NCBI GenBank assembly: GCA_020248905.1
Contig: JADCGR010000032.1
Span: 1 to 64,000, forward strand
Direction of reading: 5' to 3'
DNA: 64,000 nt
From: Curvibacter sp.
GTDB taxonomy: Bacteria > Pseudomonadota > Gammaproteobacteria > Burkholderiales > Burkholderiaceae_C
A model generated the notes under the pieces. That model saw only the letters and a program-made list of their open reading frames with translations, did no database searches and had not been told where the DNA came from. Positions 10,660 to 26,717 of this stretch are shown piece by piece (position 1 is the stretch's first letter; every line of letters starts with the position of its first letter). A program made the position numbers and the translations under genes.

Positions 10660-11580
10660 CTATGCCCGGTCGGCGACACGTTCACCCAGCAGGCCCGAAG
10701 GACGCAGCGTGAGCACCACGATCAGGACGATGAAGGCGAAGATGTCGGCATAGTGGCTGCCCAGCAGGCCACCCGTGAGGTCGCCGATGTAACCTGCACC
10801 AATCGATTCGATCAGACCCAGCAGCACACCGCCCACCACAGCGCCGGCCAGGTTTCCGATGCCGCCGAAGACCGCCGCCGTGAAAGCCTTCAGGCCCGGC
10901 AGAAAGCCCATGCTGTGCTGCACGGTGCCATAGTTGCTGGCCCACATCACGCCGGCAATGGCGGCGAGCACGGCGCCAATGATGAAGGTGGCCGAGATCA
11001 CGCGGTCCGGCTGGACACCCATGAGCGCGGCCACGCGCGGGTTCTCGGCCGTGGCGCGCATGGCGCGGCCCAGCTTGGTGCCGTGCACCAGCCACATCAA
11101 CGCGGCCAGCGTGATGGCCGTGACGACCAGAATCATGATCTGCGTGGGCGTGATGCTGGCGCCGCCGATCGAGATGGGCGTGCTCGGCAGCAGAGTCGGG
11201 TAGGCCTTGAAGTTGGGCTTCCAGATGATCATGGCGATCGTCTGCAGAAGGATGGACATGCCGATCGCGGTGATCAGCGGTGCCAAGCGCGGGCTGTTGC
11301 GCAGCGGCCGGTAGGCCACCTTCTCGATGCTGTAGTTCAGGGCCGCGGCCAGTGCACAGGCGATGAGCAGGGCGATGATCAGCACCAGCCAGGGCGGCAG
11401 CAGGGGTTGCAGGATGCCGATGACCGTCCAGCTCACCAGGGCGCCGACCATAAGCACCTCGCCATGGGCGAAGTTGATCAGGCCGATGATGCCGTAGACC
11501 ATGGTGTAGCCCAGCGCGACCAGGGCGTACATGCTGCCCAGCACCAGGCCGTTGATGATCTGTTGAAGAAAGATGTCCAT
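10660..11580 (-). CDS. livH: Branched-chain amino acid ABC transporter permease
   Basis: MDIFLQQIINGLVLGSMYALVALGYTMVYGIIGLINFAHGE. Confidence 0.9.
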   Translation of the reverse strand: MDIFLQQIINGLVLGSMYALVALGYTMVYGIIGLINFAHGEVLMVGALVSWTVIGILQPLLPPWLVLIIALLIACALAAALNYSIEKVAYRPLRNSPRLAPLITAIGMSILLQTIAMIIWKPNFKAYPTLLPSTPISIGGASITPTQIMILVVTAITLAALMWLVHGTKLGRAMRATAENPRVAALMGVQPDRVISATFIIGAVLAAIAGVMWASNYGTVQHSMGFLPGLKAFTAAVFGGIGNLAGAVVGGVLLGLIESIGAGYIGDLTGGLLGSHYADIFAFIVLIVVLTLRPSGLLGERVADRA

Positions 11581-11627
11581 ATGTACCCTGACGCAATCTT
11601 CATGCCACGTGCGGCAGGCCCCGCAGG

Positions 11628-12932
11628 CTAATTCCGACTCTTTTCGTTGAGCGCGCGAAGTGTACGCATCTTTTCGGCGATTTTGATCTCCAGCCCCCGC
11701 TCCACCGGTCGGTAGAAACCCGGCTCGGCCATGCCCTCGGGCAGATAGCTTTCTCCGGCCGCAAATGCCCCCTCTTCATTGTGGGCATAGCGGTAGCCCT
11801 TGCCGTAGTCCAGCTCCTTCATGAGCTTCGTTGGCGCATTACGCAGATGCATGGGCACGGGGCGGGTGCCGTCTTTCTTGATGAAGGCGCGAGCTTCGTT
11901 GTAGGCCTTGTACACGGCATTGCTCTTGGGCGCCACAGCGAGGTAGACCACGCACTCGGCCAGGGCCAGTTCCCCCTCGGGTGAGCCCAGTCGTTCATAC
12001 ACCTCGGCGGCGTCCAGCGCCAGGCGCAGAGCGCGCGGGTCGGCCAGGCCGATGTCTTCGCTGGCCATGCGCAACAGGCGACGTGCCATGTAACGCGGGT
12101 CGGCACCGCCGTCGAGCATGCGGACGAACCAGTAGAGCGAAGCATCGGGGTCGCTGCCACGCACGGACTTGTGCAGCGCGCTGATGGTGTCGTAGAACTG
12201 CTCGCCGCCCTTGTCGTAGCGGCGCATGCGCTCGCCCAGCACCCTGAGCAACCACGCGTCGGTGATGAGTTCCTGCTTCTGCTGCGTGGCGGCGGTCGAC
12301 AGTGTCTCCAAGGTGTTGAGCAGGCGGCGTGCGTCGCCGTCGGCGTAGGCGATCAGGCGGTCGCGCGCGGCGTCTTCGAGCGGCGGTACGGCCTCGATGG
12401 CCAGGGCCCGCTGCACGATCTGCCTCAGGTCGTCCTCGCCCAGTGACTGCAGAACATAGACCGCTGCGCGTGAGAGCAGGGCGGAGTTGACCTCGAAGGA
12501 GGGGTTCTCTGTGGTGGCCCCGATGAACGTGAAAAGTCCGCTTTCCACATGTGGAAGAAACGCATCCTGCTGGCTCTTGTTGAACCGGTGCACCTCGTCG
12601 ACGAAGACGATGGTGCGTCTGGCGTGCTCAGGTCCGCGGCCCAGCGCCACCTGCGCCCGCTCCACGGCCTCGCGGATATCCTTGACGCCGCCCAGCACAG
12701 CGCTGATGCTGATGAACTGCGCGCCAAACGCATCAGCCATGAGCCGCGCAATGGTGGTCTTGCCCGTGCCCGGTGGGCCCCAGAGGATGCAGCTGTGCGG
12801 CTGGCCTGATTCAAAGGCAATGCGCAGCGGCATGCCCTCGCCGAGCAAGTGCTGCTGGCCAATGACTTCGCCCAGGGTCTTGGGGCGCAGGCGCTCGGCG
12901 AGGGGTTGGTGCGGGGCGGCACTGGGGGGCAT
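11628..12932 (-). CDS. rarA: Replication-associated recombination protein A (AAA+ ATPase)
   Basis: LAERLRPKTLGEVIGQQHLLGEG, WGPPGTGKTTIARLMA, DEVHRFNKSQQDAFLPHVE. Confidence 0.93.
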   Translation of the reverse strand: MPPSAAPHQPLAERLRPKTLGEVIGQQHLLGEGMPLRIAFESGQPHSCILWGPPGTGKTTIARLMADAFGAQFISISAVLGGVKDIREAVERAQVALGRGPEHARRTIVFVDEVHRFNKSQQDAFLPHVESGLFTFIGATTENPSFEVNSALLSRAAVYVLQSLGEDDLRQIVQRALAIEAVPPLEDAARDRLIAYADGDARRLLNTLETLSTAATQQKQELITDAWLLRVLGERMRRYDKGGEQFYDTISALHKSVRGSDPDASLYWFVRMLDGGADPRYMARRLLRMASEDIGLADPRALRLALDAAEVYERLGSPEGELALAECVVYLAVAPKSNAVYKAYNEARAFIKKDGTRPVPMHLRNAPTKLMKELDYGKGYRYAHNEEGAFAAGESYLPEGMAEPGFYRPVERGLEIKIAEKMRTLRALNEKSRN

Positions 12933-13918: not shown

Positions 13919-14221
13919 TCACACCGCAAGTAGTCGGCAGCGCTCGATGCGCGCCAGCGTATCAACCATGGTTTCGCGGGCGATGGCCATGTCGTAGTTG
14001 GCCTGGCCGCGCAGCCACCAACCGTCGCTGAGGCCGAAGTAGCGGCACAGGCGCAGGTCGGTATCGGCGGTGATGGCTCGCTTGCCGGCCACGATGTCAC
14101 CAATGCGCTGAGGCGGGACACCGATGTCCTTGGCTAGGCGGTATTTGGTCAGGCCCAGGGGTTTGAGGAATTCTTCGTCCAGCATTTCGCCGGGGGAGAC
14201 GGGGGCAACAGTACGACGCAT
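13919..14221 (-). CDS. higA: HigA-family XRE antitoxin
   Basis: VSPGEMLDEEFLKPLGLTKYRLAKDIGVPPQRIGDIVAGKRAITADTDLRLCRYFGLSDGWWLRGQANYD. Confidence 0.88.
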   Translation of the reverse strand: MRRTVAPVSPGEMLDEEFLKPLGLTKYRLAKDIGVPPQRIGDIVAGKRAITADTDLRLCRYFGLSDGWWLRGQANYDMAIARETMVDTLARIERCRLLAV

Positions 14222-14232
14222 CTTCAACTCCT

Positions 14233-14514
14233 TCAGTGGTAATCCACGATCTCCACATCCACCGCGCCTTCGGGCGTCCAGACAAAACACACGCGCCACT
14301 GGTCGTTGACGCGTATGCTGTGCTGGCCCTTGCGCTTGCCCTTCAGCGCCTCCAGCTGGTTACCCGGCGGTACCCTCAAGTCGTCAAGGGTGGCCGACCA
14401 GTCCAGTTGCTCCAGCTTGCGCAAGGCAGGTCGTTCAATCTGGATCCAACGGCGTACGCGCTGGCCCATGAAGAGGGCCTGGGTACCACGGTACTTGAAG
14501 CTTTTGATCGCCAC
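14233..14514 (-). CDS. higB: HigB/RelE-family toxin (GTG start proposed)
   Basis: AIKSFKYRGTQALFMG...LRVPPGNQLEALKGKRKGQHSIRVNDQWRVCFVW; immediately upstream of higA. Confidence 0.85.
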   Translation of the reverse strand: MAIKSFKYRGTQALFMGQRVRRWIQIERPALRKLEQLDWSATLDDLRVPPGNQLEALKGKRKGQHSIRVNDQWRVCFVWTPEGAVDVEIVDYH

Positions 14515-14550
14515 CGGACAAATAATAACGTTATGCGTTAATAACGTCAA
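14515..14550 (-). promoter_or_regulatory. higBA promoter with embedded operator
   Basis: On the minus strand TTGACG (14550-14545), 17-nt spacer, TATTAT (14527-14522), 7 nt, GTG start; palindrome TAACG-ttatg-CGTTA (14526-14540) and direct repeats TAATAACGT at 14523 and 14539. Confidence 0.6.
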
Positions 14551-21527: not shown

Positions 21528-22811
21528 ATGCGTAACGCCCTCTGGTTTCTGGCCCTGTTCGCTATCGCCGTCGGCGTGGCCCTCTTTGCCGGCAACAACC
21601 AGGGCACTGTCACGCTGTTCTGGCCGCCTTACCGGGTAGACCTGTCACTCAATCTGGTATTGCTGAGCCTGTTTGCCGGCTTCGTGCTGCTTTACGCCGC
21701 CTTGCGCGGTTTGGCGCTGCTGCTGGGGTTACCCGCCGAGGCGCGGCGCTGGCGTTCGCGCCACCAGGAGCGCTTGCAGCAGCAGGGTCTGCTCGATGCC
21801 TTGTCGCATCTGACGGCCGGGCGCTACACTCGCGCGCGCAAGGCGGCGCAGAACGTGGTGGCCCAGACCGAGGCGCTCGCCCGCGCCGAACAGACGCCGT
21901 CCCAGGCAAACCGTCTCATGGCACTTGCGCATCTGCTGGCCGCAGAATGCGCGCACGCGCTGCAGGATCGCGGTGCACGCGAGGAGCATGCACGACAGGC
22001 CCTCGCCCTGAGTCCGGGGCGCCGGCGCGACGCGCAGGAGCTACGTGAGGGCGTACAACTGCGCTTGGCGCGTTGGGCCTTCGATGACCGCGACGTGCAG
22101 GCGGCGCTACAACGGCTGGATGAATTGCCGCAGGGGGTAGCCCGCCGTACCCTGGCCTTGCGCCTGAGACTGAAGGTGACCCGGCTGGCCGGGCAGTTCC
22201 GCTCGGCGCTGGAGACGGTGCGTCTGCTGGGCAAGCATCGCGCGTTCTCCGAATTAGCGGCGCGCAGCCTTGTGCGCAGCCTGGCCACCGAGTTGCTGCG
22301 CGGTACGCATGATCCATCACAACTGGCCCGCGCCTGGGGCCAGCTTGACGATGCCGAGCGGCGCATGCCCGAGCTGGCCCTGCAGGCCGGAGAGCGCATG
22401 CTTGACCTCGGCGGTGACTTCGACCAGGTGCAGCAGTGGCTGCTGCCGGTCTGGGAGCAACTCGTGCGTCCCGGCTCGATGTTGCCACCAGCGCTGCGGC
22501 TGCGGCTGGTCCTGCTTCTGGAGCGTGGATTCCGGCAGACGCCCGGCCAGCCCGACGCGGCCTGGCTGGCCCGCATCGAAGCGGCCCAGATGGGCAATCC
22601 GCGCGAGCCCCTGCTGCAGTACCTTGCAGGCATGGCTTGCATGCACCTGAGCCTGTGGGGCAAGGCCCAGCAGTTGTTGCAGCAGTCCCTGGCCCAGCTT
22701 ACCGACGACACGCTGCGTCGCCGCGCCTGGGCGGCGCTGGCTCGTCTGGCCGAGCAGCGGGAGGACGCTGCGGCGGCCCTCGAGGCCTGGCGTCAGGCAG
22801 CCCAGGGCTGA
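21528..22811 (+). CDS. hemY: HemY-like TPR protein
   Basis: MRNALWFLALFAIAVGVALFAGNNQGTVTLFWPPYRVDLSLNLVLL; downstream of hemX. Confidence 0.87.
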   Translation: MRNALWFLALFAIAVGVALFAGNNQGTVTLFWPPYRVDLSLNLVLLSLFAGFVLLYAALRGLALLLGLPAEARRWRSRHQERLQQQGLLDALSHLTAGRYTRARKAAQNVVAQTEALARAEQTPSQANRLMALAHLLAAECAHALQDRGAREEHARQALALSPGRRRDAQELREGVQLRLARWAFDDRDVQAALQRLDELPQGVARRTLALRLRLKVTRLAGQFRSALETVRLLGKHRAFSELAARSLVRSLATELLRGTHDPSQLARAWGQLDDAERRMPELALQAGERMLDLGGDFDQVQQWLLPVWEQLVRPGSMLPPALRLRLVLLLERGFRQTPGQPDAAWLARIEAAQMGNPREPLLQYLAGMACMHLSLWGKAQQLLQQSLAQLTDDTLRRRAWAALARLAEQREDAAAALEAWRQAAQG

Positions 22812-22892
22812 TCGCACGCCGACGCGCGGGTTGCACAGGATGACGCGAGCTTGCGAAAGGGCTAATATGGGCTGCAACAATCAGCGTGCGCC

Positions 22893-23960
22893 ATGACGAC
22901 TTTTACCGAACACCTGATCAAGCTGACCGATCACCGCGACCGCGATCTGCTGGAGCTGACGCTGGCCAAGGCCCTGATCGACCTCGTGCCCATTCAGCGC
23001 GTGGTGATGGCCCGTGTTACCGCCGAAGACAACGAGAAGCGCTGGCTGGATCTGGTCTCGCTGGATGCTGGTGGCGGTGGCAGGGTGGTGGATCCCTTGC
23101 GCATCGACTTTAAGGAGCTGCCGCGGCTCGAAGATTCCTACGACCGCCTGCGCTGCCTGCGCGGCCAGCAGGAGATTGAAGTGGCTTGGGCGGGCGAGGG
23201 TGGGCCGCGCATCTACTACCGCCCGCTGTTCGGCGACGGCCGCAGCGAGGATGATCAGGGCGTGATGGAGATCCATGCGGCTGGCGTACTCGCCGCCGAG
23301 GACAGGCTGACCATCGCCCAACTGCACCGTATCTATTGCAATATGTACACACTGCTGGCCTATAGCGACCGCGATGCGCTCACGGGCCTGCTCAACCGCA
23401 AGTCGCTGGACGATACCTTCTACAGCGCGGTGCTTGAGGAGCTCGATGGCGTCATGCAGGACCCCAAGGCCGAGCCTGTCGCCGGCAAGGAGCGGCGTCA
23501 CCGTGTGCCCCCCAACTATTGGCTGGGCAACATCGTGATCGACAACTACCACCTGCTCAGCGACAAGTACGGCCATCTCATCATGGAAGAGGTGACCCTG
23601 CTGGTCGCGCGCATCATGGCCAGCACCTTCCGTACCCATGACCGGCTGTACCGGTTCGGTGGAGAACAGTTCGCTGTGCTCTTCCATTGCCCCGAGGAAG
23701 CGCTTGCCCTGGGCGCGTTTGAGCGCCTACGCGCCAACATCGAGAAGTACAACTTTCCCCAGGTAGGCCGCGTGACGATCAGCGCAGGCTTCACGCGCGT
23801 GCTGGCCGACGATTCCCCAAGCACGGCGCTGGAGCGTACCGAACAGGCGGTGGATTTCGCGCACAAGAACGGGCGCAACAAGGTCTGCAGCCACCCGGAC
23901 CTTGTGCGCCGCGGAATGTTCGGAGAGGTGTCACGCACGGGATCGGTTGACGTTTTTTGA
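22893..23960 (+). CDS. GGDEF-domain protein with degenerate active site and intact I-site
   Basis: ...FRTHDRLYRFGGEQFAVLF...; RDALTGLLNRKSLD; metal Asp replaced (VIDNYHLL). Confidence 0.85.
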   Translation: MTTFTEHLIKLTDHRDRDLLELTLAKALIDLVPIQRVVMARVTAEDNEKRWLDLVSLDAGGGGRVVDPLRIDFKELPRLEDSYDRLRCLRGQQEIEVAWAGEGGPRIYYRPLFGDGRSEDDQGVMEIHAAGVLAAEDRLTIAQLHRIYCNMYTLLAYSDRDALTGLLNRKSLDDTFYSAVLEELDGVMQDPKAEPVAGKERRHRVPPNYWLGNIVIDNYHLLSDKYGHLIMEEVTLLVARIMASTFRTHDRLYRFGGEQFAVLFHCPEEALALGAFERLRANIEKYNFPQVGRVTISAGFTRVLADDSPSTALERTEQAVDFAHKNGRNKVCSHPDLVRRGMFGEVSRTGSVDVF

Positions 23961-23978
23961 GGCCCCGGAAACCAAAAA

Positions 23979-24003
23979 AAAAGCCCGCGTTAGCGGGCTT
24001 TTT
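23979..24003. terminator. Bidirectional Rho-independent terminator
   Basis: AAAAGCCCGC-gtta-GCGGGCTTTTT between convergent genes. Confidence 0.9.
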
Positions 24004-24041
24004 CACTCCTGGCTCCCAGACGTGAATTACGGCTGAAGCGC

Positions 24042-26717
24042 TTATTGCTCCTCGAAAGGCAGCTTCATGTCCCGAAGGTCCTTGCGGGTCTCCACCAGGA
24101 TCAGCGGGCCTTCGTCGATGACCACGGGCGCCGGACGCTCGCGTCGCACGTGGATAGGCTTGGGCTCCGCGGCAATAGCGGCCTGGACGGCTGCAATCTT
24201 GCCGGCGTCCGAGTTCACCCACTGCAGCCCGGAGCCGCTGGCCACGGCGTTGAGTTCGGACAGCGGCAGCGCATAGGGCTGCACACGGGGCAGCCCCGGC
24301 GCCAGCGGCGCCGGGCCGGTTGCGCGCGGCTCCTCTTGCGCTGCGGCGAGGGGTGCCACGGCGCTGTCCGTGGCGACTTCGCTCCCGGCCTCCTGCACCG
24401 TGCGTTCCTGACGCTCGCTGCGTTCACCGCGTCCACGGCGGTCGCGGCCATGACGGTCGCGGGAGTGGCGCTCACGCTGGCCGTTGCCCTCACCTTCGGT
24501 GCGGTTCTCGGCCGTGGGCTGCGCATCGACGGCGTTGAGGACCTCGACGTGCGACTGCTCGGTACCGGCGTCCTGTGGACGGCGTTCTCCTTCGGCGCGC
24601 GGGCCGCGCTCGGGGCGGCGTTGTTCCCCACGGTCTTGACGCTCGCCGCGTTCCTGGCGTTCGCCGCGCGCCTCGTTACGCTCACCATTGCGACCGCGCT
24701 GTTCGCCGTTGCGTGGTGCCCGCTCCTGGCGTGCCTGCTCGACACCGAGCTCGGCTGTCCGGGGTGTACGCTGCTCGGCATCCTGCCGCTGGCCTTGGCG
24801 CTCGCCGCGCGGGCCCCGGGCCTCATTACGATCGCCGCGCTCCTGACGTTCGCCGCGCTCACCACTGCGGCCGCTGCGGCCGCCCCGGCCACGGCCTTCA
24901 CCCCGACCCTCGTTGCGGTTCCCGTCCCGGCCACCCCGGGTATCGCGGCGTTCTTCCTTTTTCTCGGTCTTCACCGGCTCAGCGGCTGGCTTGCTGCCAA
25001 AGAGGCCCTTGAGCCAGCCCATGAAACCAGGGCTGGCCGGCTGCGGGGCCGGCGCCGGTGCGGGTTTGGCCGGGGCCTCGGCCACTTCCGGCTTGGGCGG
25101 CGCGATCGGCGCGGGTGCGTCGGGCAGCACGCCCTTGATCACCGGGCTCTGCTTGTTCGTAGGCTCCTGGGAACGGCGCGTGACGGTGGTCGGGTCTTCG
25201 ATCTCCTCGGCCATCTCGTAGCTGGCCTCGATGCGGTCCAGGCGTGGATCGTCGTGCTTGAGGCGCTCAAGCTTGTAGTTCGGTGTCTCCAGCGACTTGT
25301 TGGGCACCATCAACACGTTGATGCGCTGCTTGAGTTCGATCTTGGTGATCTCGTTGCGCTTCTCGTTGAGCAGGAAGGACGCCACATCCACCGGCACCTG
25401 AACGTGGACGGCGGCGGTGTTGTCTTTCTGAGACTCCTCCTGGATGATGCGCAGGATTTGCAGCGCCGAGCTCTCGGTGTCACGGATGTGGCCTGCACCG
25501 CCGCAGCGCGGGCACGGGCAGGAGGCCCCCTCGGCCAGTGCCGGCCGCAGGCGCTGGCGGCTCATTTCCAACAGTCCGAACTTGGAGATGGTGCCGAACT
25601 GCACGCGGGCACGGTCCTGGCGCAGGGCATCACGCAGGCGATTCTCGACATCGCGGCGATTGCGGCTTTCCTCCATGTCGATGAAGTCGATCACGATCAG
25701 GCCGCCGAGGTCGCGCAGTCGCATCTGGCGCGCCACCTCGTCGGCGGCCTCCAGGTTGGTGCGCGTTGCGGTTTCCTCGATGTCGCCGCCCTTGATGGCG
25801 CGCGCCGAGTTGACGTCGATGGAAACCAGGGCCTCGGTGTGATCGATCACGATGGCACCGCCTGAGGGCAGGTTGACCGTGCGGGCGTAGGCCGATTCGA
25901 TCTGGTGCTCGATCTGGAAGCGGCTGAACAGTGGTGCGTTGTCGCGGTAGCGCTTCACCCGCGCGGCATGCTCGGGCATGACGTGGGCCATGAACTGCTG
26001 GGCCTGCTCGTAAACGTCATCGGTGTCGATCAGAATGTCGCCGATGTCGGCGTTGAAGTAATCGCGGATCGCGCGGATGACCAGACTTGATTCCTGGTAG
26101 ATCAGGAAGGCGCCCTTGCCGCCCTTGGCCGCGCCGTCGATGGCGGTCCACAGCTTGAGCAGGTAGTTCAGGTCCCACTGCAGCTCGGGAGCACTGCGGC
26201 CGATGCCGGCGGTGCGCGCGATGATGGACATGCCGTTGGGGTATTCCAGCTGGTCCAGTGCTTCCTTGAGCTCGGCGCGGTCATCCCCCTCGATGCGTCG
26301 GCTCACGCCGCCGCCGCGCGGGTTGTTGGGCATGAGTACCACATAGCGACCCGCCAGCGAAACGAAGGTGGTCAGGGCGGCGCCCTTGTTGCCGCGTTCT
26401 TCCTTTTCCACCTGGACCAGCAGCTCCTGGCCCTCCTTGATCACGTCCTGAATGCGCGCCTGGCTGACCGGCACGCCCTGCTGGAAGTAATTGCGGGAAA
26501 TTTCCTTGAAGGGCAGGAAGCCGTGGCGGTCTTCACCGTAGTCGACGAAGCAGGCCTCAAGAGAAGGCTCGACGCGCGTCACCACGGCCTTGTAGATATT
26601 GCCCTTGCGCTGCTCGCGCCCTTCGATTTCGATCTCGTAGTCGAGGAGCTTCTGCCCGTCGACAATGGCCAGGCGGCGCTCTTCGGCCTGCGTGGCGTTG
26701 ATCAGCATCCGTTTCAT
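24042..26717 (-). CDS. rne: Ribonuclease E
   Basis: [30 protein letters not shown], ILVDxx catalytic core, [17 protein letters not shown] Zn-link, long Arg/Glu/Gly-rich C-terminal half. Confidence 0.96.

Follow-up and report, generated by a model that had tools for sequence, protein, structure and literature searches.

A GAF–GGDEF protein with a degenerate active site and a conserved I-site between hemY and rne: a candidate c-di-GMP receptor

The hemY–rne locus and its GAF–GGDEF product

The window, that is the whole stretch of DNA analysed here, covers 64,000 nt from Curvibacter sp. Downstream of hemCDXY, where an earlier note made from the letters alone had correctly placed it, the window carries a gene for a GGDEF-like protein which faces the convergent gene of RNase E. 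The features of the locus are given below, where the clade is that of the degenerate relatives described in the following sections.

21528 to 22811, plus strand: hemY-type TPR gene (TIGR00540), upstream neighbour conserved at 77/79 clade loci
22840 to 22868, plus strand: promoter-like ATGACG-17 nt-TAATAT upstream of the gene, a layout present in 66/77 clade members
22893 to 23960, plus strand: GAF–degenerate GGDEF protein, candidate c-di-GMP receptor (ATG start, 355 aa; open reading frame, PF00990, 79-member clade)
23977 to 24004, no strand assigned: terminator-like hairpin between the gene and convergent rne (scored on the minus strand; A/T runs flank the stem on both sides)
24042 to 26717, minus strand: rne (RNase E; TIGR00757, E=7e-157), convergent downstream neighbour conserved at 60/79 clade loci

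The 19 loci where rne was not seen mostly have short flanks or divergent rne ends.

A profile search of the open reading frame places its product in the GGDEF superfamily (Pfam PF00990, E=7.6e-16 over aa 214–330), and a Foldseek search with the modelled protein matched solved GGDEF domains in number (E about 1e-10). The N-terminal half of the window protein itself gave no match to Pfam GAF, which was matched directly in 8/67 family members, and aa 1–158 gave 0 matches by sequence in the PDB; the identity of this domain was settled by structure. The AlphaFold2 model of aa 1–158, built on 67 relatives (mean pLDDT 90.9), has GAF domains as its best solved matches (Foldseek, E about 3e-5, TM 0.6). 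The full-length model is uncertain (pTM 0.51, with pLDDT <50 for residues 158–205). It resembles multidomain cyclases in Foldseek, among them Dcsbis of P. aeruginosa (PDB 4zmu), a diguanylate cyclase by description, which is of similar size and matches the fold over the whole length with about 18% identity to the window protein. No long hydrophobic segment was found in the 355 aa read by eye. As judged from its sequence, the product is a soluble GAF–GGDEF protein without evident membrane segment. The domains and motifs within the gene, all on the plus strand, are as follows.

22893 to 23366, plus strand: N-terminal GAF-fold domain, aa 1–158 (AlphaFold2, Foldseek)
23367 to 23912, plus strand: degenerate GGDEF domain, about aa 159–340 (PF00990, AlphaFold2 model, Foldseek)
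23493 to 23522, plus strand: RRHRVPPNYW, aa 201–210, near-invariant in the degenerate clade, candidate new surface
23529 to 23594, plus strand: former metal- and guanine-binding block NIVIDNYHLLSDKYGHLIMEEV, aa 213–234 (alignment to canonical relatives)
23631 to 23642, plus strand: I-site RTHD, aa 247–250 (PleD R359/D362), R and D kept in 79/79 with 33 synonymous and 0 non-synonymous changes
23658 to 23672, plus strand: degenerate signature GGEQF, aa 256–260, with 25 variants in the clade and intact GG[DE]EF in 0
23685 to 23699, plus strand: HCPEE, aa 265–269, with 0 non-synonymous changes at H265 and C266 in the clade
23724 to 23726, plus strand: R278 at the PleD R390 position (third I-site residue), kept in 79/79 with 27 synonymous and 0 non-synonymous changes

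Active site and I-site in the degenerate clade

PleD residue numbers were transferred to the window protein by alignment and from the general numbering of PleD. Compared to canonical relatives, the window protein carries V at D327, H at the HFK Lys, S at the guanine Asn, E at the Asp of GDE, Q at E371 and H at K442; in other words, V, GGEQF, S, E and H stand where an active cyclase has the metal Asp D327, GG[DE]EF, the guanine Asn/Asp and the phosphate Lys. The earlier note had quoted NIVIDNYHLLSDKYGHLIMEEV, RTHD and GGEQF, the latter two separated by five residues, and all were recovered at aa 213–234, 247–250 and 256–260. Its replacements of the metal Asp by Val, of the guanine Asn by Ser and of GDE by MEE were likewise borne out by alignment to the canonical relatives.

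These losses are not restricted to the window protein. None of the 79 different degenerate proteins retains more than 3 of the 6 catalytic residues, when 5 or 6 of them are present in 61/61 canonical relatives. The metal Asp is retained in 0/79 (S, V, T, C, I, A and others replace it), the HFK Lys is lost in the 79-member clade, the phosphate Lys is retained in 3/79, the Asp of GDE has become Glu in 72/79 and Glu remains at the fourth signature position in 1/79. The five-letter signature itself takes 25 forms across the 79 proteins. The least consistent loss is that of the guanine Asn, with N retained in 42/79. Cyclase or another nucleotide-converting activity might still persist, as many members retain the GG together with one acidic residue of the signature, and 40/79 retain R446; with the metal Asp, E371, K332 and K442 all gone or nearly so, we regard this as very improbable.

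The I-site behaves differently. R247, D250 and R278, equivalent to PleD R359, D362 and R390, are each present in 79/79 proteins, and the sequence features of the receptor class are found together: loss of the catalytic residues, RxxD five residues before the signature, and the third Arg. The claim of the earlier note that catalysis was lost and the I-site kept therefore extends to the 79 relatives, in which the catalytic residues drift. Since the loss is common to all clade members and RxxD is invariant in 79/79, this combination goes beyond chance.

We counted codon changes by parsimony on the tree of the family, so that the p-values below are indicative. In the degenerate clade, the nine catalytic positions accumulated 149 synonymous and 150 non-synonymous changes, the three I-site positions 60 and 0, and the whole domain 2431 and 882, respectively (Fisher p=1e-16 for I-site versus catalytic positions, p=2e-8 for I-site versus whole domain). 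At the same positions, the canonical relatives showed 98/4 (catalytic) and 56/4 (I-site). Moreover, only 15/124 domain positions are without non-synonymous change and all three I-site residues are among them (chance 0.0015). These counts indicate that selection is lifted from catalysis and maintained on the I-site.

Other positions became fixed in the clade. RRHRVPPNYW is near-invariant and the canonical relatives share only R201 and W210 of it; position 265 is mostly R in canonical relatives versus H in the degenerate clade. In the GAF domain, D58, G61–G63, R70, G101, G104 and P105 were gained as invariant positions. RRHRVPPNYW, HCPEE and the GAF invariants are candidate places to seek the output and a second ligand.

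Origin of the clade and transcription of the gene

The 79 degenerate-type relatives were obtained from homologue searches and from named genomes (Rhodoferax sp., Comamonadaceae and Burkholderiales MAGs), and cover at least 7 genera of one Rhodoferax-like Burkholderiales family. No other carrier was detected at E<=1e-120 among 399 genomes of the order, a set which includes the window genome and few members of the Rhodoferax-like family. In a maximum-likelihood tree, the degenerate proteins group together in a single clade (SH-aLRT 100), which lies inside the canonical GGEEF relatives that have both domains in common with it. Active-site columns were omitted from this tree, which came from a quick search and has several long outer branches; only the single-clade result was used.

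The canonical GAF–GGEEF cyclases share both domains with the window protein at about 40–45% identity and differ by their complete active site (VIDIDHFK..ND..GDE..GGEEF). Three of them, from one other, sister genus (L058, L060 and L066), are likewise flanked by hemY upstream and by rne downstream, which makes it probable that catalysis disappeared in situ, at the hemY–rne place. The canonical paralogues of the window's genus (L033–L040) have another location, flanked by an asparaginase gene and adk. For the earlier note, orthologues with canonical GGEEF would have pointed to a one-off loss of function. Such orthologues do exist at the hemY–rne place of the sister genus, but they look ancestral and bear on this point only in another sense. 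The loss is a single old event that has persisted in at least 7 genera, and not a one-off.

The window genome does carry decayed signalling genes, among them its own canonical GAF–GGEEF paralogue, a pseudogene interrupted by frameshifts and in-frame stop codons (G000:C14, about 10930–12065; L031, 4929–6065) which is intact in the sister species. The degenerate gene is intact in the window genome, and strong purifying selection maintains an open, conserved frame in 79 relatives that represent at least 7 genera; a decaying gene of one strain, or a one-off decay, is thereby ruled out for practical purposes.

The layout NTGACN, 16–18 nt, TANNNT occurs upstream of the gene in 66/77 clade members, 65 of them with a spacing of exactly 17, compared to 1/61 canonical relatives and a rate of 0.6% in shuffled sequences. 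Within the clade, the element is conserved as GTGACG-17-TATNAT, and the stricter pattern RTGACG-17-TANNAT has 2 matches across the 3.2 Mb genome. The −35-like element is wholly intergenic in 37/66 cases; in the other 29/66 it overlaps the stop codon of hemY, from which part of its conservation could come. A generic sigma-70 scan detected no promoter in the region, owing to its cut-off of 9/12 matches. The distance between the −10-like box and the ATG is 6 nt in 42 relatives versus 24 nt in the window, and these 6 nt suggest that the gene has its own, leaderless or nearly leaderless transcript, which would begin on the start codon or right beside it. The clade (5/79) and the canonical relatives (7/61) cannot be told apart by the lack of a Shine-Dalgarno-like run, which was not used as evidence.

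On the other side of the gene, hairpins similar to that of the window were seen by eye in relatives, and the number of terminator-like sites in the region is not above that of shuffles. Together, the conserved promoter-like element and the terminator-like hairpin behind the gene argue for a separate transcription unit. The conserved element also weakens the idea of a simple member of the hemCDXY operon; with a promoter that is probably its own, the gene is not implied to function with haem synthesis.

A TGACG-17-TATTAT match was also noted at 14522–14549, right at the upstream end of a HigB/HigA toxin–antitoxin pair (window 13919–14550, minus strand; PF05015, TIGR02607).

A candidate c-di-GMP receptor and its alternatives

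Few degenerate-GGDEF receptors of c-di-GMP are known. PelD of P. aeruginosa and B. cereus resembles the window protein in having a GAF domain followed by a degenerate GGDEF domain with RxxD and a third Arg, where c-di-GMP binds (PMC7112168, PMC10333796). In B. cereus PelD, the I-site equivalents R363, D366 and R395 are each needed for this binding (PMC7112168). PelD is however membrane-bound and encoded in pel operons, whereas the window protein, predicted to be soluble and located between hemY and rne, has neither transmembrane helices nor a pel operon. No PelD chain was found among its sequence matches. In addition, close catalytic relatives do not readily turn up for PelD, whose enzyme ancestor is no longer readily recognised (PMC10333796), in contrast to the close canonical relatives available here. 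PopA of Caulobacter is also a degenerate GGDEF receptor with intact RxxD which evolved from a cyclase family (PMC10333796). It differs from the GAF–GGDEF window protein by its REC-REC-GGDEF architecture, its lineage and its cell-cycle role.

CdgI (YeaI) of E. coli belongs to another lineage, is not known to be of one family with the window protein, and presumably has a different N-terminal domain. The likeness lies in a degenerate A-site, an intact I-site and an N-terminal domain common with active cyclases; with such an arrangement CdgI binds c-di-GMP (PMC5635695). The window protein is best read as a new member of the PelD/PopA/CdgI kind of receptors, distinct from PelD.

We thus consider it probable that this soluble, catalytically dead GAF–GGDEF protein acts as a c-di-GMP receptor through its I-site and takes a second input via the GAF domain, a reading for which we infer c-di-GMP binding, a conformational output and a partner. 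c-di-GMP supplied by other cyclases in the cell would occupy R247, D250 and R278, probably as an intercalated dimer bridging GGDEF domains as in PleD. Together with the input sensed by GAF, it would shift the conformation of the dimer, and the output could pass through the clade-special surface formed by RRHRVPPNYW and HCPEE.

Some observations count against the receptor reading. R278 is widespread in GGDEF domains generally, R247 and D250 could be retained by structure or protein contact instead, and the neighbours are housekeeping genes, with no target gene linked by position. The uncertainty of the full-length model also counts here. It is conceivable, but in our view improbable, that c-di-GMP is no longer bound, that folding or a protein interface maintains the I-site residues and that GAF alone acts as sensor. 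The wide conservation of R278 and D217, and the invariant positions gained by the GAF domain itself, would fit such a protein. It is opposed by R247 and D250, unchanged in 79 proteins while the adjoining signature varies, by the loss of active-site residues throughout, and by the absence of the gene where the c-di-GMP network is small (see below).

A dead GGDEF partner could also poison or anchor dimers of active cyclases, the I-site making this pairing c-di-GMP-dependent as proposed for CdgI. The clade diverged from a cyclase that shares its N-terminal domain, and CdgI makes such hetero-contacts (PMC5635695), yet we find this unlikely. No second full-length relative was detected at E=1e-30 in the g1 species G007 and G008; with this apparent absence and the pseudogene of the window genome, an obligatory partnership with the canonical paralogue is weakened, although other cyclases could serve.

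More tentatively, and with rather less than even confidence, the receptor may be a lineage-specific two-input reader which changed from enzyme to receptor at its own locus. GAF and the segment preceding the first GGDEF strand, which has been rebuilt (RRHRVPPNYW), would then provide a new output surface acting on some partner. Expression would come from a leaderless promoter that is conserved, and the sister genus would still have the canonical ancestral form at that locus. As canonical and dead states are found at one chromosomal position in related genera, the path from enzyme to receptor could be traced residue by residue, and is testable with existing proteins. A candidate receptor, so far unstudied, is also named for a large Rhodoferax-like group. 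Within the literature covered, searches returned no paper joining GGDEF, hemY and I-site, nor one joining degenerate GGDEF, c-di-GMP and Comamonadaceae.

The window genome has about 20 GGDEF, 16 EAL and 5 PilZ matches. GGDEF-like candidates number at least 21 in g1 species with the gene versus at most 8 in those without, and at least 13 versus at most 7 in g150; in g146, the medians are 56 and 21.5, respectively (genomes at least 90% complete for g150 and g146). These counts are of first-look candidates in related species and provide support rather than proof. In g1 and g150, some species, often with small genomes, are almost without GGDEF-like candidates and without the gene; the entire c-di-GMP network appears to have been lost there within a genus. 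Finally, two EAL matches of the window genome carry in-frame stops (G000:C56:14281–14982 and 113142–113708), which suggests a wider decay of its c-di-GMP genes.
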